A stretch of 64,000 nucleotides of DNA from Saccharopolyspora gregorii (GTDB lineage Bacteria; Actinomycetota; Actinomycetes; Mycobacteriales; Pseudonocardiaceae). Numbering within the stretch: the first letter of the stretch is position 1; every line of letters starts with the position of its first letter. The notes under the pieces were generated by a model, which saw only the letters and a list, made by a program, of their open reading frames with translations, was not told where the DNA came from and did not search any database. A program made the translations under genes and the position numbers. Positions 2,418-17,963 of this stretch are shown here, one piece after another. Where the stretch lies: contig NZ_CP059556.1 in NCBI RefSeq assembly GCF_024734405.1, positions 4,092,001 through 4,156,000 of the forward strand, written 5' to 3'.

Positions 2418-2494
2418 GGGTCTCCTCGTTGAGTCCTCGCGCCGCGATAGCTCGGGGAGCCGCGCGTCGCGACGGCCGATCGGGTGGAACCGGG

Positions 2495-2562
2495 ATCACA
2501 CTGGTTCACAGAAGATATTCACTGATTCACACCAGAGTCAAGCGTGCTAACATATTTTCACG
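2495..2562. promoter_or_regulatory. Divergent promoter with repeated TTCACA-like half-sites
   Basis: The 246 bp between the DRL gene and the kinase are AT-richer than their surroundings. On the minus strand TTGACT (2541-2536) and TATCTT (2517-2512), 18 bp apart, form a good promoter for the DRL-gntP operon. On the plus strand TTCACA (2526-2531) and TAACAT (2548-2553), 16 bp apart, can serve the kinase. Half-sites TTCACA (2505-2510), TTCACT (2518-2523), TTCACA (2526-2531) and TTCACG (2557-2562) repeat through the overlap, so one regulator probably controls both directions. No regulator gene for it is in view. Confidence 0.55.
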
Positions 2563-2663
2563 GCCACGGTGCGGTTCGCCCACGACTCCCGATCCGGGCG
2601 ATCCCCCGGCCGTCCTCAGACCCCGTCCGCGCGCGCCGTGGACCCGCCCGCCAGGGAGGACGC

Positions 2664-3920: not shown

Positions 3921-4555
3921 GCGACGCCCGAGCAGAACTGGCCGCCGCGGGCGCGAAGCTCGCCGCGCTCGGCCTGAGCCCCGGCTCCTCCGGCAACCTC
4001 AGCGTCCGCGAGGGCGACCGGATGCTGATCACGCCGACGGGCGCGGACCTCGGCGACCTCGACCCGGCGGCGCTCGCCGAGCTGTCCCTCGACGGCGAGC
4101 ACCTCGGCGGGCCGCGGCCGTCGAAGGAGTTCCCGCTGCACGGCGCCTTCTACCGCCGCGACCCGGCCACCACCGCGGTGGTGCACTTGCACTCCCGGCA
4201 CGCTTCCGCGGTGTCCTGCCTGCAGCCGTGGTCCGAGCGCAGCGCGATCCCGCCGCTAACCCCGTACTTCGTGATGCGCGTCGGCCAGGCCCCGCTCGTC
4301 CCGTACGCCGCACCGGGCGATCCGGCGCAGGCCGGTGCGCTCGCGGCGCTGGACTTCGAGTTCCGCGCCGCGCTGCTGCAGAACCACGGCCCGATCACCG
4401 CGGGCACCTCGCTGGCGGCGGCGGTGGACGCGGCGGTGGAGATCGAGGAGGTCGCAGCCCTGCTGCTCGGCCTCGGCCAGCACCGCCCGCGCCTGCTCGA
4501 ACCCGCCGAGATCCACGAGCTCACCGCGAAGTACGGCACTCCGTGGGATGCCTGA
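3917..4555 (+). CDS. otnC: Class II aldolase/adducin-family 3-oxo-tetronate 4-phosphate decarboxylase
   Basis: 212 residues, full length for the family. Landmarks are SSGNLSVR (about residues 24-31), the phosphate-binding and catalytic region TPTGADLGDL, a zinc-binding HLHSRHAS and a later LLQNHGPITAG. The upstream kinase product, a 3-oxo-tetronate 4-phosphate, would be decarboxylated to dihydroxyacetone phosphate. The ATG overlaps the kinase stop, so the two are translationally coupled. Class II aldolases with the same fold also act on fuculose or ribulose phosphates; the partnership with a DUF1537 kinase is the reason for this call. Confidence 0.85.
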   Translation: MSDARAELAAAGAKLAALGLSPGSSGNLSVREGDRMLITPTGADLGDLDPAALAELSLDGEHLGGPRPSKEFPLHGAFYRRDPATTAVVHLHSRHASAVSCLQPWSERSAIPPLTPYFVMRVGQAPLVPYAAPGDPAQAGALAALDFEFRAALLQNHGPITAGTSLAAAVDAAVEIEEVAALLLGLGQHRPRLLEPAEIHELTAKYGTPWDA

Positions 4556-4825: not shown

Positions 4826-5283
4826 ATGAACCCGGAACCCGGCTCGGCGGAGCAGCCGCCGCGGACGCTCGCCGACAAGCTGGTGTACCTGATCGACGTG
4901 TACGCCCAGCAGAACGCCGCCCCGGGCAGCAGGCGCAGTGGCCGACCTTCGAACGCCTCGCCGCGGAGATCAGCGCCGGCACCGGGAAATCCATCTCGCA
5001 CGGCTACCTGCACCAGCTCTGCCGCGGCCAGCGGGACAACCCGACCCTGCACCACCTCCAGGCGCTCGCCGAGTTCTTCCGGGTGCCCGTCGCCTTCTTC
5101 ACCGACAACGAGGCGACCCGGGAGATCGTGGCGCAGTACGAACTGGTCCTGGCCATGCGCAACAGCCGCATCCGGGAGATCTGCACCTACGCGCCGCTGC
5201 TCGACTGGGAAGGGCTGGACGCGGTCACCGCGCTGGTGAAGGATCTGGCGGGCGGGGTGAAGCGGCCGGAGGCCGAGAGCTGA
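4826..5283 (+). pseudogene. XRE-family helix-turn-helix regulator, interrupted by a -1 frameshift
   Basis: The ATG at 4826 (ribosome site GGAGGTG) opens a frame giving TLADKLVYLIDVYAQQNAA and then nonsense. From 4921 another frame continues without a break: PGQQAQWPTFERLAAEI, then the HTH segment SISHGYLHQLCRGQRDNP, then ALAEFFRVPVAFF and a C-terminal helix region ending at 5283. Adding one C to the CCCC run at 4920-4923 restores a single protein of about 153 residues. That is the size of the actinobacterial XRE regulators that carry such an LADKL N-terminus. The homopolymer position allows either a sequencing error or a true inactivating mutation. The intact C-terminal reading frame suggests the change is recent or artefactual. 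Confidence 0.7.
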
Positions 5284-5295
5284 TCGCTCCGGCGA

Positions 5296-6105
5296 TCAGC
5301 CGGCGGCGGCGATGAACCGCGCCATCCGCTCGCGCACCCCGTCGTCGGATCCCAGCCACACCGCGACCGAATCGGCCCCGGCCGCGGCGTAGGCGTGCAC
5401 GTCGGCCACGACGGCCGCCAGCTCCGCGCCACCGCCGAGCCACGACGTCCGCACCGAGACCCGGACCGGCCGCACCGCGTTCGCCCGCAACCGATCGACA
5501 CGCGCGGCGAACGTGGCGGGTTCCGGAGCGATGGGCTGCCACCCGTCGCCCGAGCGGGCCGCGCGGCGCAGCGCCCGCTCCCCCGAACCACCCACCACGA
5601 TCGGCACCGGGGTGCCGGGCTTCGGTTCGAAGACCCCGGTGTCGTAGTGGAAGTGGGTGCCGTGGAACGGGCCGGAACCGCCGAGCAGGTGCCGGATCAG
5701 GTCGATGGCCTCGTCGGCGCGCGCCCCGCGGTCGGCGAAGCCGGCCCCCACCGCGGCGAATTCCGCCCGGTCCCAGCCGATGCCGACGCCGAGGGTGAAG
5801 CGGCCGCCGGAGATCCGCTCCAGCGTGGCCGCCTGCTTGGCGACGACGAACGGGCTGCGCATCGGCAGCACCAGCACCGAGGTGCCCAGCCGGATCGTCC
5901 GGGTGCGCACCGCGATGGCGGCCAGGGCGACCAGCGGATCGTAGATCCCGCCGTAGCTGCCGGGTGCGTAGCGCGACGGCGGCAGCAGGTGGTCCGGCAA
6001 CCACACCGCCCCGTATCCGAGCCGCTCAGCCGCCACCGCGAGATCGCCCAGCTCCGTGAACGGCAGCTCCGGCGATTCCGCGGGCAGCACCAGTTGCAGG
6101 TCCAC
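5296..6105 (-). CDS. LLM-class (bacterial luciferase-like) F420-dependent oxidoreductase
   Basis: 269 residues, TIM-barrel luciferase-like family. Landmarks are AAERLGYGAVWLPDHLL, RLGTSVLVLPMRSP, ERISGGRFTLGVGIGWDRAEF and PIVVGGSGERALRRAAR. The group uses coenzyme F420 or FMN and works in the cytoplasm on diverse substrates. A GTG start with GGAGGAGGTG before it was chosen. It is the last gene of the minus-strand run that begins with the EEVS-like cyclase, 53 bp after the MFS exporter. It may therefore reduce or oxidise an intermediate of that pathway, but it could also be an independent gene. Confidence 0.85.
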   Translation of the reverse strand: MDLQLVLPAESPELPFTELGDLAVAAERLGYGAVWLPDHLLPPSRYAPGSYGGIYDPLVALAAIAVRTRTIRLGTSVLVLPMRSPFVVAKQAATLERISGGRFTLGVGIGWDRAEFAAVGAGFADRGARADEAIDLIRHLLGGSGPFHGTHFHYDTGVFEPKPGTPVPIVVGGSGERALRRAARSGDGWQPIAPEPATFAARVDRLRANAVRPVRVSVRTSWLGGGAELAAVVADVHAYAAAGADSVAVWLGSDDGVRERMARFIAAAG

Positions 6106-6158
6106 CCGTCACCTCCTCCGCTCGGGTGCGGCCGGGGTCCGCCGACCCCGGCCGCCGG

Positions 6159-7352
6159 TCACACCGCTGATTCCACCGCGACCCGGTCACCGCCGCTCGA
6201 CCGGTTCCGCCACCAGTGCGAGGCGACGGCCAGCAGCAGCGCGAGCCCGCACACCGCGGCGGAGGTCAGCGGCACCGCCCCGGTCCCCCAGCCGAGGTCG
6301 AGCACCTGCCCGCCGAGCCAGGCGCCGAACCCGTTGCCCAGGTTGAACGCGGACACGTTCACCGACAACGCGAGGGTCGGCGCGGCGATCGCGATGCGCT
6401 GGATGTGCGCCTGCAGGCTCGGGATGATGGAGAAGCCCGAAGCACCGAACAGGAACAGCGCCGCCACCGCCAGCGCCGGGACCGGACCGCAGAGCCAGAA
6501 CACCAGGCACACCGCGGTGAGCACGGCCAGCACGGCGAGCACCGCCCGGCCCACGTCCCCGTCGGCGAGCTTGCCACCGGCGAAGTTCCCGACCACCGAG
6601 CCGACGCCGAACACCACCAGCAGCACCGAGATCGACGCGGGCGCGAACCCGCTGACCTCCTGCAAGATCGGCACCAGGTAGGTGGAAGTGGTGAACACCG
6701 CGCCCTGGGCGAGCACCGTGACCACCACCGCCACCGCCAGCACCGGACTGCGCAGTGCCGCGACCTCCTGGCGCAGCCGTTCGCGCCCGGTGGCCGCCCG
6801 CTGCTGCGCGGGCGGCCGCATGAACAGCGCGATCAGCACGATGGTCAGCCCCGCCACCAGCGCGATGGCGACGAAGGTGAACCGCCAGCCGAACCGCTGC
6901 CCGACGAACGTGCCCAGCGGGGAGCCGAGCGCGTTCGCCAGGTTGAACCCGAGCGCGATCTTCGCCATCGCCGAACCCTGCTTGTCCGGCGCGGAGATCG
7001 CGGCGGCCAGCGAGAACGCGACCGCCACGAAGGTTCCGTGGCTCATCGCGGTGAACACCCGCGCCGCCATCAGCACGCCGTAGTCCGGCGCCACCACCGC
7101 GGCGGCGTTGCCCGCGGTGAACACGGCCATCAGCACGAGCACCAGCGCCTTGCGCGGCACCTTCGTGGTCAGCAGCGTGACCGCGGGCCCGATCACCGTC
7201 ACGCCGAGGGCGTATCCGGTGACCAGCAGACCCGCCGAGGGCACGCTGACCGCCAGGTCCGCCGCCACGTTCGGCAGCAGTCCGGAGATCGCGACTTCGG
7301 CGGTGCCGACGCAGAACACGCCGAGCATGAGTGCGAACACGGGAATGGGCAT
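6159..7352 (-). CDS. MFS transporter, DHA1-type exporter
   Basis: 397 residues with twelve expected membrane helices. The N-terminus VFCVGTAEVAISGLLPNVAADL, shown here split by its first and last helical residues, and the motif FAGGKLADGDVG are typical of the DHA1 sugar-efflux/chloramphenicol-resistance branch. This branch exports small molecules with proton antiport. It lies 30 bp after the alpha/beta hydrolase gene at the distal end of the cyclitol operon. Export of, or self-resistance to, the product is the natural reading. The substrate itself is not evident. Confidence 0.85.
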   Translation of the reverse strand: MPIPVFALMLGVFCVGTAEVAISGLLPNVAADLAVSVPSAGLLVTGYALGVTVIGPAVTLLTTKVPRKALVLVLMAVFTAGNAAAVVAPDYGVLMAARVFTAMSHGTFVAVAFSLAAAISAPDKQGSAMAKIALGFNLANALGSPLGTFVGQRFGWRFTFVAIALVAGLTIVLIALFMRPPAQQRAATGRERLRQEVAALRSPVLAVAVVVTVLAQGAVFTTSTYLVPILQEVSGFAPASISVLLVVFGVGSVVGNFAGGKLADGDVGRAVLAVLAVLTAVCLVFWLCGPVPALAVAALFLFGASGFSIIPSLQAHIQRIAIAAPTLALSVNVSAFNLGNGFGAWLGGQVLDLGWGTGAVPLTSAAVCGLALLLAVASHWWRNRSSGGDRVAVESAV

Positions 7353-7382
7353 GGGCGAACCTCGCGGAGCGGTGGTCGTCGG

Positions 7383-8168
7383 TCAGTTCTCGGGGTGCAG
7401 GAATCCGCGGACCAGGTCCACCAGCTCGTCCGGCCGTTCCATGACGACCAGGTGCCCGCTGTCGATCTCGGCGTAGGTGCTGCCCTCGATGGACTCGTGC
7501 AGTTCCCGGGAGTGCCCGACGGGCACCAGCTGGTCGTGGGTGCAGCCGACGACCAGCGTGGGCGCCTGGATCTTCGGGGTGAGGTCGCTGATGTCGATGC
7601 CGAGCCCCAGGTCGATCTGCCGGTTGGTGCCGTCCGAGCACTTGGTGCCCGCCACGAACTCGGCCAGCGCCTCCACGCCCATCCGGCTGACGAAGCCGGG
7701 GGTGAACAGCAGCAGCGTGATCAGTCGCGCGTAGGAGGACTCGTCGAGGTCAGCGAGGTCGCGCCACAGCTTGAAGGTGAGCTGGTGGCGCGGATCGGTC
7801 GAGTCCTGCCAGCCGGCGATGAGCACCAGCCGGTGCACCAGTTCGGGGTGCTTGGCGGCCACCCCGGCCGCGACGACGGCGCCGAGCGAGAACCCGCCGA
7901 GGTCCACCGGCTCGCCACCGTTGTCCCGGATGACGGCGGCGACCTGCTCGATCAGCGCGTCGAGGGTGATCGCACCACCGTCGTCCTCGGTGCCACCGCT
8001 GCCCGCGTAGTCCGGGGTGATCACGGTGTGCCGGTCGGTGAACCGGTCCACCAGGTGGCCGAAGTTGGCGACCGAATCGGCTCCGGTCCCGTGCACCAGG
8101 ACGAGTCCTGGCCCCGCGCCGTGCGTCGTGTAGTGCACCACCGCGCCGGGGATCGAAACTGTGCTCAC
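7383..8168 (-). CDS. Alpha/beta hydrolase
   Basis: 261 residues. Landmarks are the oxyanion region LVLVHGTGADS, the nucleophile elbow GGFSLGA (Ser), a distal acid near GCTHDQLVP and the catalytic His in DSGHLVVMERPDE. This completes a Ser-Asp-His triad. I use GTG 8168, with AAAGGAGAA upstream although the spacing is long. Further upstream the frame runs into the neighbouring dehydrogenase. In the cyclitol operon it could remove or transfer an acyl group, opposite to the membrane acyltransferase, but its substrate is unknown. Confidence 0.85.
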   Translation of the reverse strand: MSTVSIPGAVVHYTTHGAGPGLVLVHGTGADSVANFGHLVDRFTDRHTVITPDYAGSGGTEDDGGAITLDALIEQVAAVIRDNGGEPVDLGGFSLGAVVAAGVAAKHPELVHRLVLIAGWQDSTDPRHQLTFKLWRDLADLDESSYARLITLLLFTPGFVSRMGVEALAEFVAGTKCSDGTNRQIDLGLGIDISDLTPKIQAPTLVVGCTHDQLVPVGHSRELHESIEGSTYAEIDSGHLVVMERPDELVDLVRGFLHPEN

Positions 8169-8203
8169 GATGAGTTCACTTCTCCTTTCTCGTCCGGTCA
8201 CCG

Positions 8204-9277
8204 TCAGGACATCCGAATCAGGATCTTCGGACGTCGGCGACCGCTGCTGGCAAGCCGTTGGAAGGCGGCACCGACTTCCGAACGGGAGAAAGCGGAATCT
8301 ACCAAGGGATCCAGCCGGACCAGACCGCTTTCCACGAACGTGATCAACTCTTCCCAGCACCCGATCCCGGAGAGGACCGCGTGCATCGTGACGTTCTTGA
8401 TCACCAGGTCGGCGACCGGGAATCCGTCCACCGAATGGTGCGGAGTGCCCAGCTGCGCCATTCGGGCACCCGGTGCGCACAGCACGGGCGCGGACCTGGC
8501 CGCGGCCACCGAACCCGATGCCTCGATGACGGCCGAGTAGCGGTCCGCTTCGGCGTTCTCCGGAACCGAGACCGGGAAGCCGAGTTCCGCGGCGAGCTCC
8601 CGCGGCTCCGGTTGCGGGTCGAACACATCGACCCGCGCGCCCAGCGCACGGCACAACTGGGCCGCTACGACACCGAGCGTGCCCGCGCCCAGCACCGCCA
8701 CCCGGTCCGCACCGGTCACCGCCAGCCGCCGCACCGCGTGCAGCGCGGCCGAGGCGGGTTCCAGCAGCGCGGCGACGTCGTCGCCGAGCGAGTCCGGGAT
8801 CCGGACCAGGGTGTCCGCCGGGGCTTCGAGGTAGTCGGCAGCGGCGCCCTGCGCCTGGCCGAGCACGCCGATCTCGCTGCGGCCCGGGCAGTACCTGAGG
8901 TCGCCGCGTCCGCAAGCGGGGCAGTTCCCGCAAGGGCGGAAATTGTGCCCGGAAACGCGCTGCCCGACATCGAACCCGACGACCCCGGAACCGGTTTCGA
9001 CGATCCGCCCGCACCACTCGTGGCCGAACACGAACGGGAACGACTTCAACCCGTCGTGCAGGTAATTGCTCGATCCGTCGTAGAAACCCAGATCCGTGCC
9101 GCACAGGCCGATCCGGCTGATCCGGATCAGGCAGTTCCCGCTGCTCGGCGGGGCCACCGGAATTCGCCGCTCCCGCACCACTCCGGGAGCTTCCAGCACC
9201 AGTGCGGACATCGCGGACGACTCGCGCTCGGGCGATTCGGGCGAAACCCGGCCTGTCATGTCGGTGGAACGGGACAT
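8204..9277 (-). CDS. Zinc-binding medium-chain dehydrogenase (sorbitol/cyclitol dehydrogenase-like)
   Basis: 357 residues. The catalytic zinc site is GLCGTD plus FGHEW, the structural zinc cysteines are in PCGNCPACGRGDLRYC, and the Rossmann motif is VAVLGAGTLGVVAAQ. It should oxidise a secondary alcohol or reduce a ketone with NAD(P). ATG 9277 is preceded by GTGAGGTG, seven bases after the acyltransferase stop. It is the second MDR enzyme of the operon. A dehydrogenase acting on a ring hydroxyl of a C7-cyclitol fits the context. The specific position oxidised cannot be predicted. Confidence 0.87.
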   Translation of the reverse strand: MSRSTDMTGRVSPESPERESSAMSALVLEAPGVVRERRIPVAPPSSGNCLIRISRIGLCGTDLGFYDGSSNYLHDGLKSFPFVFGHEWCGRIVETGSGVVGFDVGQRVSGHNFRPCGNCPACGRGDLRYCPGRSEIGVLGQAQGAAADYLEAPADTLVRIPDSLGDDVAALLEPASAALHAVRRLAVTGADRVAVLGAGTLGVVAAQLCRALGARVDVFDPQPEPRELAAELGFPVSVPENAEADRYSAVIEASGSVAAARSAPVLCAPGARMAQLGTPHHSVDGFPVADLVIKNVTMHAVLSGIGCWEELITFVESGLVRLDPLVDSAFSRSEVGAAFQRLASSGRRRPKILIRMS

Positions 9278-9284
9278 GCGCACC

Positions 9285-10460
9285 TCACTTCGCGGGAACG
9301 GGTTCGGCGGGGACGGACTCCACAGGTGCCGCGGGCGGGCGGCGGCGGCCGAAGCGCCGCATGATCGGCCGTTCGACGGCGGTGTACAGCAGCCACGCGC
9401 CCAGCACCGAGACGACCAGCTCGGCGAGCACCACACCGCTCGCGGCCCAGAAGCCGAAGTAGGCGTCCGGCCCCAGCAGCTCCCGGGTACCGCTCAGCAC
9501 CAGCGCGTGCACCATGTAGAACGCGAACGAGATCTCCCCCAGCCACACCGGGAACCGCCCCCGCAGCGGCGAACGGCCGCCGCGGACGTCGGCGCACGCG
9601 GCCGCCGGGATCAGCAGCGCCAGCGGGATGATCGTGACCGCGTTCAGGTGGAACACCCACGGCACGAAGGACGCCAGCACGTACCCGCCGGCGGTGAGCA
9701 GCGCCGCGGTACCGAACCCGAGCCCGATCCAGCGCCCGCTCAGCACGATCCTGGCCAGCACGATCCCCAGCGCGAAGTCCAGCGCGCGCACCGGCGGCAG
9801 GAAGTACACCAGCCAGAACTGCCACACCGAGCCCGGCGAGTTCGCCTCCGGGAGCCCCGGTTCGGTGGGCACCAGGAACTGCGCCACGAACGCCACCGCG
9901 AACACCGCCGCGATCAGCCCGATCGCGGTCGCCCACAGCCGAGCCGCGGGAATCCGCTTGATCAGCGGGAACAGCACCGGGAACGCCAGGTAGAACAGCA
10001 GCTCGCAGCCCAGCGACCAGCTCGGCACGTTCACGCTGAGGAACGTGTCGTAGTCCGGCACCCACGGGTGCAGCAGGAACAGGTTGGCGAACACCGTCCC
10101 GGCAGCCGCGGTGCCGCCGCTGAACAGCACCAGCGCCAGCGCCCAGGTCACCAGGTGGTTCGGGAACACCTTCACCAACCTGCGTCGCCAGAAGTCCAGC
10201 ACGTCCCCCACGGAGTCGCTCGACCAGGTGAGCACGAATCCGCTGAGGATGAAGAAGAACGCGACGCCGATGCGGCCCGCGTCGGCGGCGACGGTGCTGA
10301 ACGCGCTCGCCTGCGCCGGGTCGCCGAAGAACGTCCACGGCGGCGTCGTGCAGGAAGCGTGGAACAAGAACACGAGCAGCGCGGAGATGAACCGCATGCT
10401 CGTCAAGGACGGCAACCGCGAGGTGCGGTCCCGCTCGGTGATCCCCCAGGTCTGCGTCAT
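9285..10460 (-). CDS. Acyltransferase 3 family membrane protein
   Basis: 391 residues, strongly hydrophobic with about ten membrane helices. Landmarks near the N-terminus are LTSMRFISALLVFLFHAS (the family His) and GVAFFFILSGFVLTW. The later FAFYMVHALVL is also typical. These integral membrane enzymes acylate hydroxyls of sugars and small molecules. The start overlaps the HAD phosphatase stop by four bases (10457-10460). In this operon it is the candidate for attaching an acyl group to the cyclitol product, giving an ester that the nearby hydrolase could cut. Confidence 0.9.
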   Translation of the reverse strand: MTQTWGITERDRTSRLPSLTSMRFISALLVFLFHASCTTPPWTFFGDPAQASAFSTVAADAGRIGVAFFFILSGFVLTWSSDSVGDVLDFWRRRLVKVFPNHLVTWALALVLFSGGTAAAGTVFANLFLLHPWVPDYDTFLSVNVPSWSLGCELLFYLAFPVLFPLIKRIPAARLWATAIGLIAAVFAVAFVAQFLVPTEPGLPEANSPGSVWQFWLVYFLPPVRALDFALGIVLARIVLSGRWIGLGFGTAALLTAGGYVLASFVPWVFHLNAVTIIPLALLIPAAACADVRGGRSPLRGRFPVWLGEISFAFYMVHALVLSGTRELLGPDAYFGFWAASGVVLAELVVSVLGAWLLYTAVERPIMRRFGRRRPPAAPVESVPAEPVPAK

Positions 10461-11131
10461 GGTCGTGCGGTCCTCATTTCTTCGAGTCGGACCCGCAGGC
10501 GTTCGCCGTCGCTGGAGGCGGTGACCGCGTCGAGGTCGGCGACCCGGGGCAGGTCTGCGGCGACCCGCCCGCCGTGGGCGCCGACGACGACCGCCCGCGC
10601 CCCGCTGGCCAGTGCCGAGAGCAGGCCTGCCTCGGCGTCCTCGAACACGATCGCCGCTTCCGGTGGCACCCCCAGGTGCCGGGCGGCGAGCGAATACCCC
10701 TCCGGATCCGGTTTTCCTTGTCGGACGTCTTCGGCGCTGACGACCACGTCGGGCAGCCGCAGCCCGGCCGCCGCCATGCGCCGCCGCGCCAGTTCGCGGC
10801 CTGCGGAGGTGACCACGGCCCAGCGGCTCGCGGGCAGGCTCGCCAGCAGCTCGGCGGCTCCGGGGATCTGCACGATCCCGTCGACGTCGGCCACTTCCTC
10901 CGCGACGAGCCGGGCGGTCTCCGCGGCCACGTCACCGCCGGCGGGCAGGTGCCGCGCCACGGTCTCCCCGGTCCTCCTGCCGTGCGCGTCGGCGAGGATC
11001 TCGGCGCCGTCGAGCCCGTGGCGGCGGGCGAAGCGGTGCCAGGTCCGTTCGACGACGGTGGTCGAGTCGACCAGCGTGCCGTCCATGTCGAACAGCAGCG
11101 CCTCGGCGGTGAGCAGCACTTCTTCGGTCAT
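10457..11131 (-). CDS. HAD-family sugar phosphatase
   Basis: 224 residues, subfamily I HAD hydrolase. Motif I is LLFDMDGTLVDS (residues 13-24), motif II is VVTSAGRELA, the motif III Lys is in RQGKPDPEGY, and motif IV is VFEDAEAGLLSA. It resembles glycerol-3-phosphate and sugar phosphatases and is cytoplasmic. It is coupled on both sides by ATGA overlaps. With a ROK kinase in the same operon, it probably removes a phosphate put on, or carried by, a cyclitol intermediate. Confidence 0.88.
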   Translation of the reverse strand: MTEEVLLTAEALLFDMDGTLVDSTTVVERTWHRFARRHGLDGAEILADAHGRRTGETVARHLPAGGDVAAETARLVAEEVADVDGIVQIPGAAELLASLPASRWAVVTSAGRELARRRMAAAGLRLPDVVVSAEDVRQGKPDPEGYSLAARHLGVPPEAAIVFEDAEAGLLSALASGARAVVVGAHGGRVAADLPRVADLDAVTASSDGERLRVRLEEMRTARP

Positions 11132-11904
11132 GGCCGGGCCTCGCTCGGTCGTCGGGTCAGGGTGTCGGCGTGTCCGCGCAGCCGCGCCAGGTCGACGCGC
11201 AGCCGTTCCCGGTCGCCGTCGCGGTGGTCGTTCTCCAGCACCAGTGCGCGCACGTGCCCGCCGCGCGCGCGGACCGCGGCGAGGGCGGACTCGGTGTCGC
11301 CGCCGTCCTTGACGTGGATCTGGTCGGCGAACCGGTCGCCGAGCGCCGCGACCAGCGCCGCGACGTCCACGCCCGCCTGGTGCGGGTTGGCCGTGTCGAG
11401 CAGCAGCCGGAAGGATTCCGCGCCGACCTGGTCGAGCAGCCGCTCGGCCGCGGGAACGTCGAGGACGTTCTCGTTGGCCAGCAGCAGGCCGCGGGCGGCG
11501 GCTTCGGCGCTCGCCCAGCGCAGCACCTCGGCGGTCGCCGACAACGATGCGGGGCCGGTGATCGCGCTGCGCCGGAAGCTCGGCACGAACACCAACGGTG
11601 CCTCCAGTTCCCGCGCCGCGTCCAAGGCGCGGGTCACGGTGCGGCGCACCACCGCGGGGTCGGCGGAGGTGAGCCCGATGTCGTTCATCAGGTTCACCGC
11701 TACCCCGAGCACGCGGACTCCGGTGGCGGCCGAGGTCTCCCGGATCCGCCGGATGCGCCCCGGTTCGTCGAGCGGTGCGCCGCGTCCCGGACCGCCGAGG
11801 TCGAGCTGCACCCCGTCCGCGCCGAGCTCCGCGGCGAGGGTGAGCACGTCCGCGCCGTCGGCGTCGACGCGCCAGCCGGTGAGCCCGATCAGCGGCCGGT
11901 TCAC
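11128..11904 (-). CDS. Sugar phosphate isomerase/epimerase (xylose isomerase-like TIM barrel)
   Basis: 258 residues, one AP-endonuclease-2/xylose isomerase-like barrel. Likely metal ligands lie in LANENVLD (Glu), LLLDTANPHQAG (Asp, His), QIHVKDGG (His, Asp) and a late Glu in LVLENDH. Such enzymes isomerise or epimerise sugars and polyols through an enediolate. The GTG start overlaps the SDR stop (GTGA, 11901-11904). Known C7-cyclitol pathways epimerise at C2 with a vicinal-oxygen-chelate protein. None is visible here, so this barrel is a candidate substitute; that is inference. Confidence 0.83.
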   Translation of the reverse strand: MNRPLIGLTGWRVDADGADVLTLAAELGADGVQLDLGGPGRGAPLDEPGRIRRIRETSAATGVRVLGVAVNLMNDIGLTSADPAVVRRTVTRALDAARELEAPLVFVPSFRRSAITGPASLSATAEVLRWASAEAAARGLLLANENVLDVPAAERLLDQVGAESFRLLLDTANPHQAGVDVAALVAALGDRFADQIHVKDGGDTESALAAVRARGGHVRALVLENDHRDGDRERLRVDLARLRGHADTLTRRPSEARP

Positions 11905-12650
11905 GAACCCAGCCCGCGGCTCTGCGACTCCGGCGGCTGCTCGCGCACCGAACGCCAGCCGCCGTCGGCGTCGACGACCAGGCTGTCGCCGTGGTGCTCG
12001 CCGCCGCGGGTGCGCAGCAGCTCGGTGGCGACCGCGCCGAACCCGGCCGGGCGCATGTAGTCGCTGTAGTCGAAGTCCTCCGGCCGCCGGCGGCGGATGC
12101 CCGGGGTGTCGACCATGCCGGCGGGCAGCACCTGCACGATCCGCAGCCGCGCGGCGTCCTCCTCCTGGGCCAGCGAGTGGAGCAGGCCGGTGCCCGCCGC
12201 CTTGGTCGCGGCGTAACCGGACCGGCCGGGTCCCGCGTTGTAGACCACTTCGGAGGAGACCCCGAGCAGCAACCCGGGGCCTGCCTCCCGCAGTGCGGGC
12301 AGCGTGGCCGCCAGCGTCAGCCACAGGCCGTGCAGGTTCACGTCCACCTGGCGGCGCCACTCCTGCTCGGTGACGTCGCGGAACAGCGCCCGCTTCGTCC
12401 CGTAGTGCACCGCGGAGAAGCACACCGCGTGCAGCGGGCCCGCGCCTGCGACCTCGGCGAGGGCCTGCCGGGCCTGGTCGGGTTCGGTGAAGTCCAGCCG
12501 CGCCCAGCCCAGCGCGGCGTCATCGGGTTCGCTGCGGCTCGCGACGACGACGTCGGCGCCCGCTTTCGCCCAGGCGTCGGCGATGCCGCGGCCGATGCCC
12601 GTGGAACCGCCGACCACGAGCGCGCGGACCGGTCCGGAAACGTCTGCCAT
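11901..12650 (-). CDS. Short-chain dehydrogenase/reductase
   Basis: 249 residues, classical SDR. The cofactor loop is VVGGSTGIGRGIADA (residues 12-26), the helix-4 Asn is in DVNLHGLW, and the catalytic SSEVVYNAGPGRSGYAATK gives Ser, Tyr and Lys. It is cytoplasmic and NAD(P)-dependent. ATG 12650 overlaps the preceding stop by one base (TGATG). The order dehydrogenase-SDR-isomerase suggests serial oxidation state changes on one ring substrate. Confidence 0.9.
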   Translation of the reverse strand: MADVSGPVRALVVGGSTGIGRGIADAWAKAGADVVVASRSEPDDAALGWARLDFTEPDQARQALAEVAGAGPLHAVCFSAVHYGTKRALFRDVTEQEWRRQVDVNLHGLWLTLAATLPALREAGPGLLLGVSSEVVYNAGPGRSGYAATKAAGTGLLHSLAQEEDAARLRIVQVLPAGMVDTPGIRRRRPEDFDYSDYMRPAGFGAVATELLRTRGGEHHGDSLVVDADGGWRSVREQPPESQSRGLGS

Positions 12651-13768
12651 CAGTTCTCCTCGTGGTGTCGGGGTTGCGGAGCGGAGATCCGCACGGCGAG
12701 CTTCACCAGCCGGCGGCCGTCGATGTCGCGACCGCGGCCGGTCGCGAGCTCGCGCATGATCCGGGCGGCTCCGTCGAGGTCGGTGCCGTGCGTGACCAGG
12801 TCGCGGTAGCGCTCCGGGGCGCGCACCAGCTCGTCGGCGGCGATCCGCAAGTGGTCGTTGCCGACCCCGCGGTGCCCGAACAGGTGCACGCGGTCGCCGG
12901 TGGTGGTGCTGAGCGCGGCGTGCTCGGGCGGGTCCGGTGTGCCCGCTCGGTTGGCGGCGCGGAGCGCGACGAGGTCGGCACCGGGCAGCATCGGCGTGCC
13001 CGCCGCCGGGGGCAGGCCGCCCACCAGGTCCACCGCGAGCTCGTGGCCCGCTGCCGCCGCGATCGCCGCCTCCAGGCAGCCGACGGTCGCGTCCCGCGGG
13101 GTGGCGATGAGCGCGGCGACGGGCCCCGGCGTCGTTTCCGCCGTCAGGTCGGCACCGGGTTCCAGCACCGCGTGCACCGGCTCCGGCGGCAGATCGTCGG
13201 CGGTGCGCCGCACCAGGACGATCCGCTCGGCCTCGGTCAGCCATCGACGCGCGGCGCGCACCGCGAGCCTGCCGACCGTCCCGGCGCCGAAGACGACGAG
13301 GGTGCGCGGGCGGAACCGGCGCAGCGCCGAGAGCGCGTAGCGCACCACCGCGAGCGGTTCCAGCAGCGCCGCCAGGTCGGGCTCCGGCACCGAGGTCAGC
13401 GGCAGCACCAGGCCCGCGTCGACGGCCGAGGCCGGTATCCAGGTCCGCTCCTGCAGCAGTCCGCCCACGTTGTGTCCCAGCAGGAACGCGGGGTCGGTGG
13501 GGTGCGTCGGGTTCACCACGACCTTCGTGCCTGCGCCGAGCTCCGGTGCGACGCCGGGCCCGGCCGCCACCACGGTCGCGATGCCTTCGTGGCCGATCAC
13601 CTCGGCCGGGTCGTCCCGCATGCCGCGCAGCATCTGGACGTCGGTGCCGCACAGGCCTGCCACTTCGGGGCCCAGCAGCAGTTCTCCCGGTCCGGGCGGC
13701 CGGGTCGGCCGGTGCCGGACCGCGATGCCGGTGCCGTCGCGCACCACGGCTCGGTGCGTCCGGGTCAT
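12650..13768 (-). CDS. Alcohol dehydrogenase-like MDR protein (catalytic zinc site only)
   Basis: 372 residues. GLCGTDVQML and VIGHEGIATVV form a catalytic zinc site, and VVFGAGTVGRLAVRAA is the Rossmann motif. The four-cysteine structural zinc lobe seen in the other dehydrogenase of this operon is absent; that position reads NPTHPTDPAFLLGHN. The protein is therefore a divergent MDR, related to threonine/glucose dehydrogenase-like enzymes. The start overlaps the kinase stop by four bases (ATGA). It likely interconverts a keto and hydroxy group of a cyclitol. The regiochemistry is unknown. Confidence 0.83.
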   Translation of the reverse strand: MTRTHRAVVRDGTGIAVRHRPTRPPGPGELLLGPEVAGLCGTDVQMLRGMRDDPAEVIGHEGIATVVAAGPGVAPELGAGTKVVVNPTHPTDPAFLLGHNVGGLLQERTWIPASAVDAGLVLPLTSVPEPDLAALLEPLAVVRYALSALRRFRPRTLVVFGAGTVGRLAVRAARRWLTEAERIVLVRRTADDLPPEPVHAVLEPGADLTAETTPGPVAALIATPRDATVGCLEAAIAAAAGHELAVDLVGGLPPAAGTPMLPGADLVALRAANRAGTPDPPEHAALSTTTGDRVHLFGHRGVGNDHLRIAADELVRAPERYRDLVTHGTDLDGAARIMRELATGRGRDIDGRRLVKLAVRISAPQPRHHEEN

Positions 13769-14778
13769 CTGCCCTCCCGCGCCGCGAGTCCCGCTCCGAC
13801 GAGCCCGCCGGAGGTGCTCGCGTCGTCGACGACGAGCCGCCGCGCCGCCCAGCCGGGGACGCGATCGCCGGTCAGGTAGGTGCCGGCGCGTTCCAGGTGC
13901 GCCAGCACCGCGCCGCGGTAGTGCTCGCCCAGCCCGGTGACGACGCCTCCGGTCAGCACCAGGTGGTCCAGCTCCGGGTCCAGGCACACGGCGGTGCGCA
14001 GCAGGTCGGCGACCGGTGCCGTGACAGCGGCCAGCAGCGCGGTGGCGAGCCGGTCGCCGTGGTCCAGCGCGGCGCGGAACGCATCCTCGAACGCGGTGCC
14101 GTCCTCGGCGCGCCCCAGCGCCGAGTTCCGCCATCCGGCGGGATCGCGGCGCCGGACCTCCTCCGCGACCCGGCGGATTCCGGGCCCGGAGGCGAACGCC
14201 GAGAGGTGGTCGTCGACCCCGCAGTCGCAGGGCAGGTGCAGCGGCTCGCCGCGCCACGACGCGGCGATCGGCAGGTGCCCGATCTCGCCCTGCAGACCGC
14301 ACTCGTCGACCGGGATCTCGCCGCGGCGGCGGTCCACGGTGCGGCAGGCGATGCCGGTGCTGATCGTCGCGAGCAGCACCTTGCGGTCGTCCGCGTACCT
14401 GGGCCCGGTGATGGCGTGCAGCAGTGCGGCGGTGACGTCGTTGACGACGTGCCAGCGCACGTCCGGGCGCGCGGACCGCAGGGCGCCCAGCAGGTCGAAC
14501 GGCTCCGCGCAGGAACCCCACAGCGGCGCCGAGGCGTGCACGGTGCCGGTCCGGTGGTCCAGCGCGGCGCCGAAGGAGATCCCGGCGACGCGGCCTGCCG
14601 GCACCGCGGCGCACAGGTCCCGCACGAGTTCGGCCCGCAGCTGCGCGACGTCGGCGCCGGGACGCCTGCTGATGCTGGGCGAGGTGGTCTCGGTGATCTC
14701 GGCCAGCCCGTGCTCCGGCGTCCAGTCGGCGGCCCGCAGCCGGGTGCCGCCGACGTCGATCACGGTGATCGGGTTCAT
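13765..14778 (-). CDS. ROK-family kinase
   Basis: 337 residues. The ATP-binding motif is TVIDVGGTRLRAA, the ROK signature is LQGEIGHLPI, and a zinc-type CDCG follows. The usual CxCGxxxC motif reads CDCGVDDH here, so the third Cys is replaced, possibly by His. ROK proteins are sugar kinases or repressors. There is no N-terminal HTH, so this is a kinase. A glucokinase-like ROK enzyme (ValC) phosphorylates C7-cyclitols in validamycin biosynthesis, and the same role is attractive here. The gene follows the EEVS-like cyclase with an ATGA overlap (14775-14778). Confidence 0.86.
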   Translation of the reverse strand: MNPITVIDVGGTRLRAADWTPEHGLAEITETTSPSISRRPGADVAQLRAELVRDLCAAVPAGRVAGISFGAALDHRTGTVHASAPLWGSCAEPFDLLGALRSARPDVRWHVVNDVTAALLHAITGPRYADDRKVLLATISTGIACRTVDRRRGEIPVDECGLQGEIGHLPIAASWRGEPLHLPCDCGVDDHLSAFASGPGIRRVAEEVRRRDPAGWRNSALGRAEDGTAFEDAFRAALDHGDRLATALLAAVTAPVADLLRTAVCLDPELDHLVLTGGVVTGLGEHYRGAVLAHLERAGTYLTGDRVPGWAARRLVVDDASTSGGLVGAGLAAREGR

Positions 14779-15968
14779 CGCGCCGCACGCACCAGAACGG
14801 TGTCCGATCCGGCCCGCTCCCGCACGAACCGGAGCGCTTCGCCGAGCTCCTCGCGGGTGATGTCGTGCACGAAGGTCGCGGAACCGATGCCGTCGGTCAG
14901 CGGAATCCGCTGCTCGCCGTCCCGGTGCTTCACCGCGTCGCGCAGCGCTTCGACGAGCAGGTCGGTGGTGAACACCGGGTCGGTCACCGGCAGGCCGGCG
15001 GCCCGCAGCAGCCCGATCGCCCGGTCGGCGTCCGCGGTGCCGAGCATCCCCCTGTTGTGCGCGAGCGCCACGCACACCGCCATGTCCACCGCGACGGCTT
15101 CGCCGTGCAGCAGCGGCGGGTCGGCCCGCAGTTCCAGCGAGGGGCTGAAGGTGTGGCCGTAGTCGACCGAGCGCTCCAGCACCTCTTCCCACAGGTTCGG
15201 TTCCAGCTCGTCGAGCATGCCGCCGATCGCCCGCGACATGATCTCCACCGCGGGGCCGCCCGGCTCGCCGTCGGCGAACGCGGCCGCGTCCAGGTCGTGC
15301 ACGGCGAGTTCCAGCAGGTCGAACAGCGCCGCGTCCTTGATCAGCGCCATCTTCACGATCTCGGCGAGCCCGTTGGCGATGTGCCGTTTCGGCACCGTGC
15401 GCAGGAATTCCGGGTCGATCAGCGCCACTTCGGGCGCGTAGTAGCTGCCGAGCCGGTTCTTGTGCGTGCCGTGGTTGATGCCGGTCTTGACGCCGATCCC
15501 GGCGTCGACCTGGCCGATGAGCGTGGTGGGCACGCGGACGTAGGGGACGCCGCGCCGGTACAGCCCGGCGGCCATGCCCGCGACGTCGAGGACGGCGCCG
15601 CCACCGACCGCGACGACCTTCTCCGAGCGCCGCAGGATCCCCATCCCGGTCATCGCCTCGGTGATGGCGACGACTTCGTCGAGGTTCTTGGACTGCTCGC
15701 CGCCGGGAACGACGTGCCACTTCACGTCGATCGACCACGCCTCGAAGTAGGCGCGGAGCCGGTCGCCGTGGAGGACGTCGACGGAGTCGTCGACGATCAG
15801 CAGGCAGCGCGGCGACCTGCCGGGCGCGGTTCCGCACGCGTCGGCGAGCGCCGAGTTCGACGGCGACAGCAGCCCGGTGAGCACGCGGACGTCGTAGCCG
15901 ACCGGTTGCCGGGCGCGGACCCGCCAGTCGGTGCCGATCTTCGCGGTGCCTCCGGAGTTCGCGGACAT
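14775..15968 (-). CDS. 2-epi-5-epi-valiolone synthase-like sugar phosphate cyclase
   Basis: 397 residues, dehydroquinate synthase superfamily. Landmarks are GGGAVLDVAGMAAGLYRRG, VRVPTTLIGQVDAGIGVKTG, HKNRLGSYYAPE, NGLAEIVKMALIKD and SVDYGHTFSPSLE followed by HGEAVAVDMA. GHTFSP in place of the GHTFGHA of dehydroquinate synthases, together with the HKNRLG segment, matches the EEVS group (ValA, AcbC, CetA, SalQ). EEVS cyclises sedoheptulose 7-phosphate to 2-epi-5-epi-valiolone. ATG 15968 has GGGAGGA eight bases upstream, better than the GTG just before it. It is the first gene of a coupled operon with no shikimate genes, which argues against a role in aromatic synthesis. EVS or another branch of the superfamily is the main alternative. 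Confidence 0.87.
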   Translation of the reverse strand: MSANSGGTAKIGTDWRVRARQPVGYDVRVLTGLLSPSNSALADACGTAPGRSPRCLLIVDDSVDVLHGDRLRAYFEAWSIDVKWHVVPGGEQSKNLDEVVAITEAMTGMGILRRSEKVVAVGGGAVLDVAGMAAGLYRRGVPYVRVPTTLIGQVDAGIGVKTGINHGTHKNRLGSYYAPEVALIDPEFLRTVPKRHIANGLAEIVKMALIKDAALFDLLELAVHDLDAAAFADGEPGGPAVEIMSRAIGGMLDELEPNLWEEVLERSVDYGHTFSPSLELRADPPLLHGEAVAVDMAVCVALAHNRGMLGTADADRAIGLLRAAGLPVTDPVFTTDLLVEALRDAVKHRDGEQRIPLTDGIGSATFVHDITREELGEALRFVRERAGSDTVLVRAAR

Positions 15969-16290
15969 CACAGAGTCCTCCCAGTGGTGGTTCCGCCGCC
16001 CGGACGCGCGGTCCGGGCGCGCGGAGATGCGCTCCCGAATTCGTAGATGGGTGGATCCGGGCGGGGTCGCGCCCTCGCCGGATCAGGTCGGCTGCGCTGC
16101 CGACGATCAGTTCGGTCGACCGAACTCCCCAGTTGCGCGAGCGGAGCTGATACCCCAGATCATCCATATCCGCTTACGTCGCGCAGCCTAATGCTAATCA
16201 CAGCGGATGAGCGCCGTCAACTGAAATGGATGACAACGGGAGGTGACTTGTTCTCCCTGGTCCAGGGGCGGACCGGCCACGGGACGCCGC
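15969..16290. promoter_or_regulatory. Promoter region of the cyclitol operon with 18-bp perfect palindrome
   Basis: AGTTCGGTCGACCGAACT at 16109-16126 is a perfect 18-bp palindrome, about 140 bp before the EEVS start. It is probably the operator of the operon. The stretch 16140-16230 is AT-richer than the rest and should contain the minus-strand promoter, but I cannot assign -35 and -10 boxes with confidence. The membrane-protein gene ends at 16291 on the same strand, and no strong terminator is seen between. No regulator gene adjoins. Confidence 0.6.
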
Positions 16291-17436
16291 TCAGCGGCCC
16301 GCGGGCTGCGAACGCTCCGCGCGGCGGAAGTCGAGCGCCGGCCCCGCCCCGTACTCCTCGGCGACCACCAGCAGGAAGCGGATCTCCGACTCCAGATCAG
16401 CCCCTCCCGGCAGCGGCACCGCACTCCCGGCCGCCACCGCGCCCCGTGCCCGGACGTCCTCCGCCGCCCGCAGCCAGCAGGCCAGCACCGCCGCCGCCAC
16501 CCGGTCCGGCGGCACCCCTGCCGACACCACGTGCGCGCGCGCCCGCTCGACCAGTTCGGCCGAGCAGTGCCCGCTCAACAGCAGCACCGCGTCCCGGATC
16601 TCGATCACGAGCCGGTAGCACGCCAGCTCCACGGCGGCACGCGACCGGAACACCTCGCGCCCCGCGGCGGCGAGCGGGACGCGCCGGACCTCCGGCACCC
16701 CGGCGGTGATCTCCGCCCACAACGGCAGCAGGCGCCGCAGAACCCGGCGCTTGGCCGAGGTCCCGCGCACCTCGGCCCACAGCGGGGCGGACACGCCCAC
16801 CGCGAAGCACCCGGCCTGCACCCCGCTGACGAGCGGCGCGACCGACAACGGCGACGATTCCCCCGTCCAGGCCGCGAACGCCGCCAGCGGGCAGAGCACG
16901 AGAACCGACAGGCAGAACCCGGCCCCGTACGCGAGCAGACCGAACCGCGCCCCGCCCGGCCCCCCGCGCACGCCCGCCCGCACGCACAACCCGCACGCCA
17001 CCGCGTGCGCGACCACGTGCAGCAGCAGAAAACCCGACCAGTAGCTGTCCAGCACCGCGACCGGCACCGGCGGACCCGCGAAACCGACCGCGGACAGATC
17101 GGAGCGGACCAGCAGCGAGACCACCACGGCCCCACCGGCCCACAGCAGCGGCGTCCGGGCGCCGCGCACCCGCAGGAAAGCCGAGAAACCGTGGAGCACC
17201 AGGCAGGAACTCGTCACCGCGATCGAATTGCGCAGCACGTGCACCGCCTGCGGGCTCAACGCGGATTCGCGCAACCACGTGCAGGAAGCGTCGGTGTGCA
17301 GCGTCATCGTCGTCGCGAGCCCGGCGCCGATGAGCCAGAACGCCCGGGTCCGGCGCTGCCGCAACGCCTGCGGTGCGCGGAGCAGGACCGCGAGCCAGAG
17401 CGCCCCGATGCCGGCGAACTCCACCACCGAGCTCAC
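16291..17436 (-). CDS. MAB_1171c-like integral membrane protein
   Basis: 381 residues. The N-terminal half has about seven hydrophobic helices (VVEFAGIGALWLAVLL at the start, FLLLHVVAHAVACGLCV in the middle). The C-terminal half is a soluble helical domain with RAAVELACYRLVIEIRDAVLLL, here quoted only to show its Arg-rich, Leu-rich helix. Proteins of this layout are annotated as MAB_1171c-like putative transporters of unknown role, usually beside an ImmA/IrrE metalloprotein. GTG 17436 overlaps the stop of that partner (GTGA, 17433-17436). No substrate or enzymatic motif is visible. Confidence 0.75.
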   Translation of the reverse strand: MSSVVEFAGIGALWLAVLLRAPQALRQRRTRAFWLIGAGLATTMTLHTDASCTWLRESALSPQAVHVLRNSIAVTSSCLVLHGFSAFLRVRGARTPLLWAGGAVVVSLLVRSDLSAVGFAGPPVPVAVLDSYWSGFLLLHVVAHAVACGLCVRAGVRGGPGGARFGLLAYGAGFCLSVLVLCPLAAFAAWTGESSPLSVAPLVSGVQAGCFAVGVSAPLWAEVRGTSAKRRVLRRLLPLWAEITAGVPEVRRVPLAAAGREVFRSRAAVELACYRLVIEIRDAVLLLSGHCSAELVERARAHVVSAGVPPDRVAAAVLACWLRAAEDVRARGAVAAGSAVPLPGGADLESEIRFLLVVAEEYGAGPALDFRRAERSQPAGR

Positions 17437-17963
17437 CGCGGCGGCGGCCACGGGGCCACCGCGAACCCGAGCGCCTCCTCGATCCCGCCCACCCGCACCG
17501 GAGTCGGCAGGATGCGGCTGCCCAGCAGGACCGCGATGTCCTCGGCCTCCCGCTCGGCCGCGGCACCGTGCCCGCCGTGCGAGCGGGCCAGCAACCGGGA
17601 CACCGTTCCCGGGTCGAGATCCGGGACCATCCGCCGGAATTGCGCCGCGCGCCGCTCCGAGTGATCGGCGGGTTCCGCTCCACCGTGCGCGAGGATGTGG
17701 CCGATCTCGTGCAGAATGATGTGCTTTCGGTGCAGTTCGCTGGTACGCGGTTCGACGAAAACGTAGTCGGTGTCCGCGGCTTCCACCCAGAGCCCGTGCG
17801 GACGGGCGGAATTCGCCGCCCCCGGAAAGGGGAGCACGCGCAGCGGACGTTTCCGGCGCGCGGAGATGCACTCGATCAACTCATCCATCGAACAGGCGGC
17901 AGGCAGCGCCAATTCCTTGACCAGCCTGCGAAAACGCGCGCGCGAACGCCACCCCTCCAGCAC
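17433..17963 (-). CDS. ImmA/IrrE-type metallopeptidase-like protein
   Basis: 176 residues. A short N-terminal helical region (FRRLVKELALP) precedes the zinc-peptidase motif HKHIILHEIGHIL, i.e. HEXXH with catalytic Glu. A further acidic region (AEREAEDIAVLLG) can supply the third ligand. Members cleave or bind repressors, or act as toxin-antitoxin-like partners of XRE regulators. I chose GTG 17963 (GGGAGGG eight bases before). A longer GTG start at 18020 exists, but it lies upstream of the predicted transcription start. Translationally coupled to the membrane protein, it probably works with it at the membrane. Confidence 0.8.
   Translation of the reverse strand: MLEGWRSRARFRRLVKELALPAACSMDELIECISARRKRPLRVLPFPGAANSARPHGLWVEAADTDYVFVEPRTSELHRKHIILHEIGHILAHGGAEPADHSERRAAQFRRMVPDLDPGTVSRLLARSHGGHGAAAEREAEDIAVLLGSRILPTPVRVGGIEEALGFAVAPWPPPR

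Follow-up and report, generated by a model that had tools for sequence, protein, structure and literature searches.

The operon and its setting

The DNA analysed here, called the window throughout, is a stretch of 64,000 nucleotides from Saccharopolyspora gregorii (NZ_CP059556.1, positions 4,092,001 to 4,156,000), drawn from the single contig of a 6.34 Mb genome. Between positions 5296 and 15968 it carries a compact operon of eleven minus-strand genes whose leading part recalls the early steps of acarbose biosynthesis. The operon opens with a cyclase of the 2-epi-5-epi-valiolone synthase (EEVS) type and continues with a ROK kinase, a medium-chain dehydrogenase/reductase (MDR1), a short-chain dehydrogenase/reductase (SDR), a xylose-isomerase-like protein (XI), a HAD phosphatase, a membrane acyltransferase (AT3), a second medium-chain dehydrogenase/reductase (MDR2), an alpha/beta-hydrolase (ABH), an MFS transporter and an LLM oxidoreductase (Table 1). 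Pfam searches assign the genes to these families (PF00480 for the ROK kinase) and so agree with the initial annotation, made by a model from the letters of the sequence, which had described eleven minus-strand genes of the same kinds over this interval.

The genes are tightly packed. Four-base overlaps join EEVS to ROK, ROK to MDR1, SDR to XI, XI to HAD and HAD to AT3, a single base is shared by MDR1 and SDR, and the remaining gaps measure 35, 30 and 53 bases. The AT3/MDR2 junction depends on where MDR2 begins: a codon-based gene caller placed the start at 9211, giving a gap of 73 bases, and an ATG at 9277 gives a gap of 7. The latter is favoured because the corresponding locus of Saccharopolyspora sp. 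HNM0986 (L033) carries MDR2 in the longer form, 8 bases from AT3; the junctions first proposed (five ATGA/GTGA overlaps, a one-base overlap and gaps of 7, 35, 30 and 53 bp) are thereby upheld. The same caller recovered all eleven genes, a result that is not fully independent since it was trained on homologues of these very genes, and it starts MFS 12 bases and ABH 27 bases further in than the coordinates of Table 1.

All eleven genes occur in the same order in HNM0986, at 61-81% protein identity, and dN/dS between the two loci ranges from 0.23 to 0.45 across the eleven (Nei-Gojobori). The kept order, these ratios and the retention of family motif residues, which were checked in eight proteins plus XI, with MFS and LLM outside that check, argue that the operon is no chance arrangement; judging from the sequence comparison, its genes are under purifying selection. 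Two further minus-strand genes lie upstream of EEVS and hold their places in L033 (58% and 52% identity). These had been missed at first, so that the count of eleven stands for the operon, and the locus as a whole may comprise 13 genes. Scans for promoters and terminators added little: one promoter-like site (Table 1), and fewer terminators than in shuffled sequences.

Table 1. Features of the cyclitol locus, in order of transcription. L127 and L130 are loci of the Actinoplanes genus group read as acarbose-type (see text); L033 is the HNM0986 locus.
Feature	Coordinates	Strand	Evidence and remarks
Small protein, possibly regulatory	17433..17786	-	Weak M78/IrrE similarity, below Pfam cut-off; same position in L033, 58%
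DUF6545 membrane protein, probably part of the locus	16291..17451	-	PF20182; kept in place in L033, 52%
Sigma-70-like promoter match upstream of EEVS	16191..16220	-	Consensus match only; 1 found vs 0.3 expected
EEVS	14775..15968	-	Best PDB match ValA 4p53; tree; Zn ligands E203/H272/H288 plus D269, P276, H348
ROK kinase	13765..14778	-	PF00480; 58% to AcbM position of L127, against 30-37% to the ROKs in five further EEVS clusters
MDR1, AcbL type (5-epi-valiolone-7-phosphate dehydratase, to valienone 7-phosphate), 372 aa	12650..13768	-	PF08240; 61% to AcbL position of L127
SDR, AcbN type (valienone-7-phosphate reductase), 249 aa	11901..12650	-	PF00106; 66% to AcbN position of L127
XI, AcbO-type 2-epimerase, xylose-isomerase-like TIM barrel, 258 aa	11128..11904	-	PF01261; 50-53% to AcbO positions of L127/L130
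HAD phosphatase, beta-phosphoglucomutase-like, predicted 7-phosphate removal, 224 aa	10457..11131	-	PF00702/PF13419
AT3, membrane O-acyltransferase, 391 aa	9285..10460	-	PF01757, 5e-27
MDR2, zinc alcohol/polyol dehydrogenase with structural zinc site	8204..9277	-	PF08240/PF00107; start from L033 comparison
ABH, alpha/beta-hydrolase, esterase-like, 261 aa	7383..8168	-	PF00561; PDB 8qzu carboxylesterase, 6e-62
MFS transporter, exporter-type by family, 397 aa	6159..7352	-	PF07690
LLM oxidoreductase, predicted F420-dependent, 269 aa	5296..6105	-	PF00296; TIGR03619, 225 bits vs cut-off 167

The cyclase and the acarbose-type front end

The cyclase had been described as EEVS-like, and homology bears this out. 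Its best match among PDB entries is ValA, the solved EEVS (4p53), at 377 bits, followed by desmethyl-4-deoxygadusol synthase (DDGS) at 243 and the best dehydroquinate synthase (DHQS) at 158. Residues E203, H272, H288, D269, P276 and L255 are present in all 94 rows of an EEVS alignment and H348 in 64 of them, the comparison covering seven positions, not the full 14-residue fingerprint; the ValA numbering of the sites that distinguish EEVS from DDGS is presumed. A DHQS (AroB) identity is ruled out by the bit scores, by the motif GHTFSP, which lacks the second histidine of the AroB motif GHTFGH, and by tree position. In a 75-row tree the window cyclase falls within a 30-row branch (100 SH-aLRT) on the side of ValA and the acarbose-type EEVS, apart both from DHQS (99 SH-aLRT) and from the product of a second, AroB-like DHQ_synthase gene in the same genome; the grouping with dehydroquinate synthases that would have counted against the assignment did not occur. 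The tree was built by a quick method, with long branches flagged, and DDGS falls inside its EEVS side on a very long branch, the second longest, so that the distinction between EEVS and DDGS is carried by scores and residues. On these sequence grounds we assign the window cyclase as an EEVS.

The 30 alignment rows that lack H348 (L082-L111) have arginine at the position of the histidine in ValA's KHRDG motif, and these cyclases possibly differ in specificity. The cluster at L082 holds cupin, glycosyltransferase and HAD domains.

The reference for the genes that follow comes from L127 and L130, in which a glycosyltransferase-like gene is followed by a Cof-type HAD (PF08282), an amylomaltase (GH77), a PfkB kinase, ROK, MDR, SDR, XI and EEVS (Pfam was run on L127). 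Beside this segment in L127 lie genes for a sugar dehydratase, an NTP transferase and an alpha-amylase, which resemble acbB/A/E/D; the first gene of L127 (533 aa) is truncated at the edge of the stretch, matches no Pfam family at 1e-5 and is glycosyltransferase-like only by similarity to other loci. Because this content and order match the end of the published acarbose operon, acbVUSRPIJQKMLNOC (PMC7682106), we read both loci as acarbose-type, an identification by gene families and order, not by name.

Window genes 1 to 5 are 48, 58, 61, 66 and 50% identical to the proteins at the acbC, acbM, acbL, acbN and acbO positions of L127, and over L127 and L130 together the ranges are 47-48% for EEVS, 57-58% for ROK, 60-61% for MDR1, 66% for SDR and 50-53% for XI. 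In published work AcbC is assigned cyclisation, AcbM 7-phosphorylation and AcbO 2-epimerisation (PMC9200736), AcbL dehydration to valienone 7-phosphate and AcbN its reduction to valienol 7-phosphate (PMC7081202). By sequence comparison, the five window genes form an AcbC-M-L-N-O cassette, each of the five enzymes having its orthologue in the operon, and homology supports the predicted route from sedoheptulose 7-phosphate to valienol 7-phosphate well. The initial annotation had grouped ROK, two MDR enzymes, SDR, isomerase and HAD as general modifiers of the ring. Ring-modifying genes they are, but not an undefined set, since four of them together with EEVS make up the early acarbose cassette; likewise the supposed isomerase is predicted to have a xylose-isomerase-like fold, and its identity to the L127 and L130 proteins sharpens the assignment to a 2-epimerase of the AcbO type.

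Family residues are kept along the cassette. S132, Y146 and K150 of the SDR occur in 27 of 27 rows, and C40, H60, E61 and E137 of MDR1 are retained wherever aligned; as MDR1 has only two cysteines, it would be without the structural-zinc lobe. In XI the candidate metal ligands E145, D170, H197 and E224 are present in 38 of 38 rows. A sequence search at E 0.001 returned no relative of XI among solved structures, and an AlphaFold2 model built from 23 alignment rows (pLDDT 95.3) offers a structural model for epimerases of the AcbO type. Its best Foldseek match is the L-xylulose-5-phosphate 3-epimerase UlaE (TM 0.84), with D-tagatose 3-epimerases and the isomerase Art22 lower. In ketose 3-epimerases of this fold a metal and two glutamates serve to epimerise the carbon next to a ketone, the type of reaction attributed to AcbO, and XI is predicted from the model to be a metal-dependent barrel of this kind with a plausible epimerase active site. 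The idea that AcbO is a VOC-type protein, with XI a non-homologous replacement, is ruled out: in both L127 and L130 a homologue of XI occupies the AcbO position.

Downstream genes and the spread of the cassette

Beyond the cassette, D15, D17, K140 and D165 of the HAD protein are present in 27 of 27 rows. AT3 is the gene of the operon most conserved in L033 (81% over 367 residues), and with only three members of its family over cut-off in the whole host genome its presence here is unlikely to be background; a structure search by sequence found no solved relative at E 0.1, and its mechanism therefore stays at family level. The nearest PDB entries to MDR2 are threonine and other alcohol/polyol dehydrogenases. 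In a metagenome-assembled genome of the Propionibacteriales (L070), AT3 and MDR2 are fused into one protein of 747 aa, its parts 40% and 53% identical to the window proteins. The triad Ser94-Asp212-His239 of ABH is kept in 3 of 3 rows, and ABH was matched in eight of the 397 genomes of the order that were searched, this genome included: five beside an EEVS core (placed by coordinates only in G097 and G150) and three elsewhere, with no other operon gene within 20 kb. The nearest NCBIfam models to the transporter, all below cut-off, are drug-efflux MFS. As had been proposed, no aminotransferase, nucleotidyltransferase, glycosyltransferase, polyketide synthase (PKS) or nonribosomal peptide synthetase (NRPS) is found among the eleven genes by Pfam.

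The reach of the cassette was gauged from 97 EEVS loci, of which 80 were kept from one genome-contig scan, 3 are plasmid records and 14 are genome stretches. XI was found in 39 and VOC in 27, with both in 7, which rules out strict mutual exclusion of the two; three loci have neither but carry a ribulose-phosphate-3-epimerase-like gene, and 35 matched none of the three probes. L114, L128 and L129 pair such a ribulose-phosphate-3-epimerase-like gene with a DegT-type aminotransferase, and no XI or VOC probe match was seen there. The 39 XI loci, five of which (L142-L146) were fetched because they bear XI, hold ROK in 39, MDR1 in 39, SDR in 31, MFS in 23, HAD in 22, LLM in 6, AT3 in 5, MDR2 in 4 and ABH in 2; of these counts (E 1e-15, mostly 10-kb flanks, near-duplicates included) the last four are lower bounds, the ABH gene of L162, for instance, lying beyond the 10-kb flank. 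The eight XI loci without SDR are Streptomyces loci with ROK and MDR1 in one family of fused proteins (fusion confirmed on L044).

The cassette occurs in Streptomyces, Actinopolyspora, Actinokineospora, Agrobacterium, Phyllobacterium and Salinicola, and hosts of XI loci include Agrobacterium vitis (also on a plasmid), Phyllobacterium, Salinicola, Pantoea and Prodigiosinella. The A. vitis plasmid (L113) bears a minimal EEVS-ROK-MDR-SDR-XI-MFS cluster, to whose transporter the window MFS is 67% identical. Within the Streptomyces group, XI was found in 7 of 392 genomes, one of them the chosen centre. Closer to the window, an EEVS-like match at 1e-50 turned up in 69 of the 297 family genomes sampled; in only eight, this genome included, is it at least 66% identical, and among these the complete eleven-gene order was seen here and in HNM0986. 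Two of the eight (G235 and G271) correspond by position to L039 and L036, two more (G097 and G150) were covered over about 4 kb, and another (G176, locus L162) carries the five-gene cassette with HAD, MDR2, two AT3 genes, ABH (53%) and two MFS genes, a cluster of the type also seen at the Actinopolyspora loci L038 and L054. A further one of the eight, L148 (G295), has the cassette and MFS, with no AT3, MDR2 or ABH within 20 kb. The fusion in L070 and clusters of the L162 type lend support, at the level of gene content, to a working module.

In Actinoplanes utahensis (L068) a ROK-MDR1-SDR-XI-HAD block adjoins, in divergent orientation, an EEVS belonging to the ValA branch, which suggests exchange of the cassette between EEVS types. 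In L145 (G416, Streptomyces group) the AcbO-type gene occurs twice, with an NTP-transferase homologue and several more genes close to one of the copies, a possible pseudo-oligosaccharide cluster.

The predicted product and comparison with known systems

The gene content points, in our judgement with reasonable though not high confidence, to an operon that makes a small nitrogen-free C7 carbasugar ester, an acarbose front end passing into a HAD/AT3/MDR2/MFS branch. EEVS would cyclise sedoheptulose 7-phosphate to 2-epi-5-epi-valiolone, the ROK kinase would add the 7-phosphate, XI would epimerise C2 beside the C1 ketone, presumably through a metal-bound enediolate, MDR1 would eliminate water to give valienone 7-phosphate, and the SDR would reduce this to valienol 7-phosphate, for which a mass of m/z 255.03 [M-H]- is reported; these five steps draw on sequence orthology to assayed enzymes. 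From here the pathway would depart from that of acarbose, with no 1-phosphorylation, nucleotide activation or amino-sugar coupling. HAD would instead remove the 7-phosphate, AT3 would acylate a ring or C7 hydroxyl, MDR2 would re-oxidise one of the alcohols, giving a ketone or an aldehyde, and MFS would export the product, while ABH might trim or transfer the acyl group, either in maturation or to protect the producer, and the LLM enzyme, of the F420 type, might adjust the oxidation state of the ring. It is from the genes present that we infer the acyl group, the enediolate mechanism and the nature and order of the later steps; the product is probably an acylated valienol-type carbasugar.

The acyl group admits another account, in which the operon yields a free valienol- or streptol-like carbasugar, AT3 and ABH act as a pair that gives self-resistance through a transient protective acyl group, and what is exported is not acylated. 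Minimal clusters with no AT3, ABH or PF00144 match (A. vitis L113, L036, L039 and L050-L052) fit this account, an acyltransferase and a hydrolase in one operon could add and then remove the same group, and (+)-streptol is described (PMC8599487) as a free C7 cyclitol with bioactivity, from a plant symbiont that bears an EEVS gene on its plasmid. Set against this, AT3 is the best conserved gene relative to L033, L162 keeps two copies of it, and other Streptomyces cassette loci have different candidate acyl genes. One of them, L044, has no AT3 and carries a PF00144 protein plus a 2-oxoacid dehydrogenase E1-alpha/E1-beta/E2 set that could supply branched acyl-CoA. The AT3 conservation, the paired copies and the alternative acyl genes suggest that the acyl group matters, and we consider a non-acylated product unlikely.

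It is quite improbable that the operon instead feeds valienol phosphate to an unlinked second half and so to a pseudo-oligosaccharide of the acarviosin or validoxylamine type. Acarbose-type clusters use the same cassette in that way, and in L145 it stands near an NTP-transferase homologue, but the window operon itself encodes a HAD and a transporter and lacks a nucleotidyltransferase. Searched against this organism's own genome, the glycosyltransferase of the validamycin-like locus L071 gave no match (a search without positive control) and the L071 NTP transferase one partial match at 32%; aminotransferases elsewhere were not searched for.

We give almost no credence to a catabolic role, or one in sugar-acid metabolism, which is the colour of the left flank: positions 1-4555 encode a GntP permease, a DRL-type oxidoreductase, a DUF1537-type kinase and a class II aldolase, which together look like a set for sugar-acid catabolism and probably have nothing to do with the operon. 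Those genes lie on both strands, unlike the operon, whose first gene encodes a committed biosynthetic cyclase and which also includes an efflux-type MFS. As the L033 sequence stops just past the LLM end, comparison with it is limited to the operon on that side. Elsewhere around the operon, a convergent XRE-type regulator gene (4826-5283, plus strand) has its N- and C-terminal parts in different frames, its L033 homologue being a single frame of 161 aa, and a glycoside hydrolase family 92 protein is encoded at 18230-20542 on the minus strand.

Several observations weigh against the acylated carbasugar that we favour. AT3, MDR2, LLM and ABH are missing from most cassette loci (present in at least 5, 4, 6 and 2 of 39), and the minimal clusters yielded no acyl gene. 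AT3 substrates are broad, and any acyl donor proposed for the enzyme would be conjectural. The window HAD is ruled out as an orthologue of AcbJ, since the AcbJ position is occupied by PF08282 and no HAD match was found in L127 or L130. The window EEVS is closer to that of the validamycin-like locus L063 (52%) than to the acarbose-type enzymes, from which it appears that the EEVS of the cassette has a separate history. The case as a whole is made from genes.

A bolder proposal, which we offer tentatively and would not yet lean on, is that AcbC-M-L-N-O forms a mobile valienol module that stands by itself and has spread across Actinomycetota and Pseudomonadota, with acarbose only one of its users, and that here it drives an undescribed class of acylated, nitrogen-free carbasugars in which AT3 and MDR2, a pair fused in one lineage, couple acylation to oxidation of the same ring. 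Even short of that, what had been a vague EEVS operon becomes a stepwise pathway, with five enzymes whose orthologues have been assayed leading to one named intermediate, and the acarbose front end is indicated to be a portable cassette, also in plant-associated bacteria such as A. vitis. The branch after valienol 7-phosphate is new to us. Valienol-type compounds mimic glucose, and acylated members, if real, would for that reason be candidate glycosidase inhibitors or allelochemicals.

Among the matches listed in searches of mostly open-access literature, no paper ties the gene order of the window to a product, nor were gene clusters for rancinamycin, COTC or gabosine seen. No identical cluster with a named product emerged from literature and locus comparison, MIBiG being outside their scope. 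The distinctness first claimed is nonetheless weaker than written: the core is a sub-cluster shared by the XI-bearing EEVS loci, and a related cyclitol cluster from Streptomyces lincolnensis is already in print. COTC, the rancinamycins and the gabosines are nitrogen-free C7 cyclohexenoids, some of them acyl esters, and the predicted product resembles them as a compound class, which is a lead only. The hallmark of C7N aminocyclitols, an aminotransferase or a pseudoglycosyltransferase with a nucleotidyltransferase, is absent from the eleven genes by Pfam.

The valienol sub-cluster of the validamycin and pyralomicin type (iPRESTO motif 940, PMC9946207) resembles the window in using EEVS and a ROK kinase toward a valienol moiety. 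The validamycin-like loci L063 and L071 differ in having a ROK only 30-31% identical, a VOC protein and no XI.

L142, which we tentatively take to be S. lincolnensis, has the order LLM-PF00144-HAD-XI-SDR-MDR1-ROK-EEVS-BBE; unlike the window it shows no AT3, MDR2 or ABH match over 20 kb, and has a PF00144 protein and a berberine-bridge-type oxidase (BBE). The predicted C7-cyclitol cluster of S. lincolnensis, linked in print to carbasugars isolated from the species (PMC10717218), includes the HAD SLCG_5038 and the AcbL/SalM-like SLCG_5041, three numbers apart, as the HAD and MDR1 homologues of L142 are three genes apart. The Actinopolyspora-type clusters L162, L038 and L054, for which we know of no study, share with the window the cassette, HAD, MDR2, AT3, ABH and MFS, and differ in an extra AT3, an extra MFS, an extra MDR protein and the lack of an LLM match.

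With the acbC-O-N-L-M genes of the Actinoplanes acarbose cluster the window shares five orthologues, at 48-66% identity to L127, and the chemistry predicted as far as valienol 7-phosphate. Its HAD is beta-phosphoglucomutase-like, whereas AcbJ is of the Cof type; the operon is without the pfkB kinase, amylomaltase, nucleotidyltransferase, glycosyltransferase and dTDP-sugar genes of that cluster, and adds to the common cassette an acyltransferase, a zinc dehydrogenase, a hydrolase, an MFS transporter and an LLM oxidoreductase.

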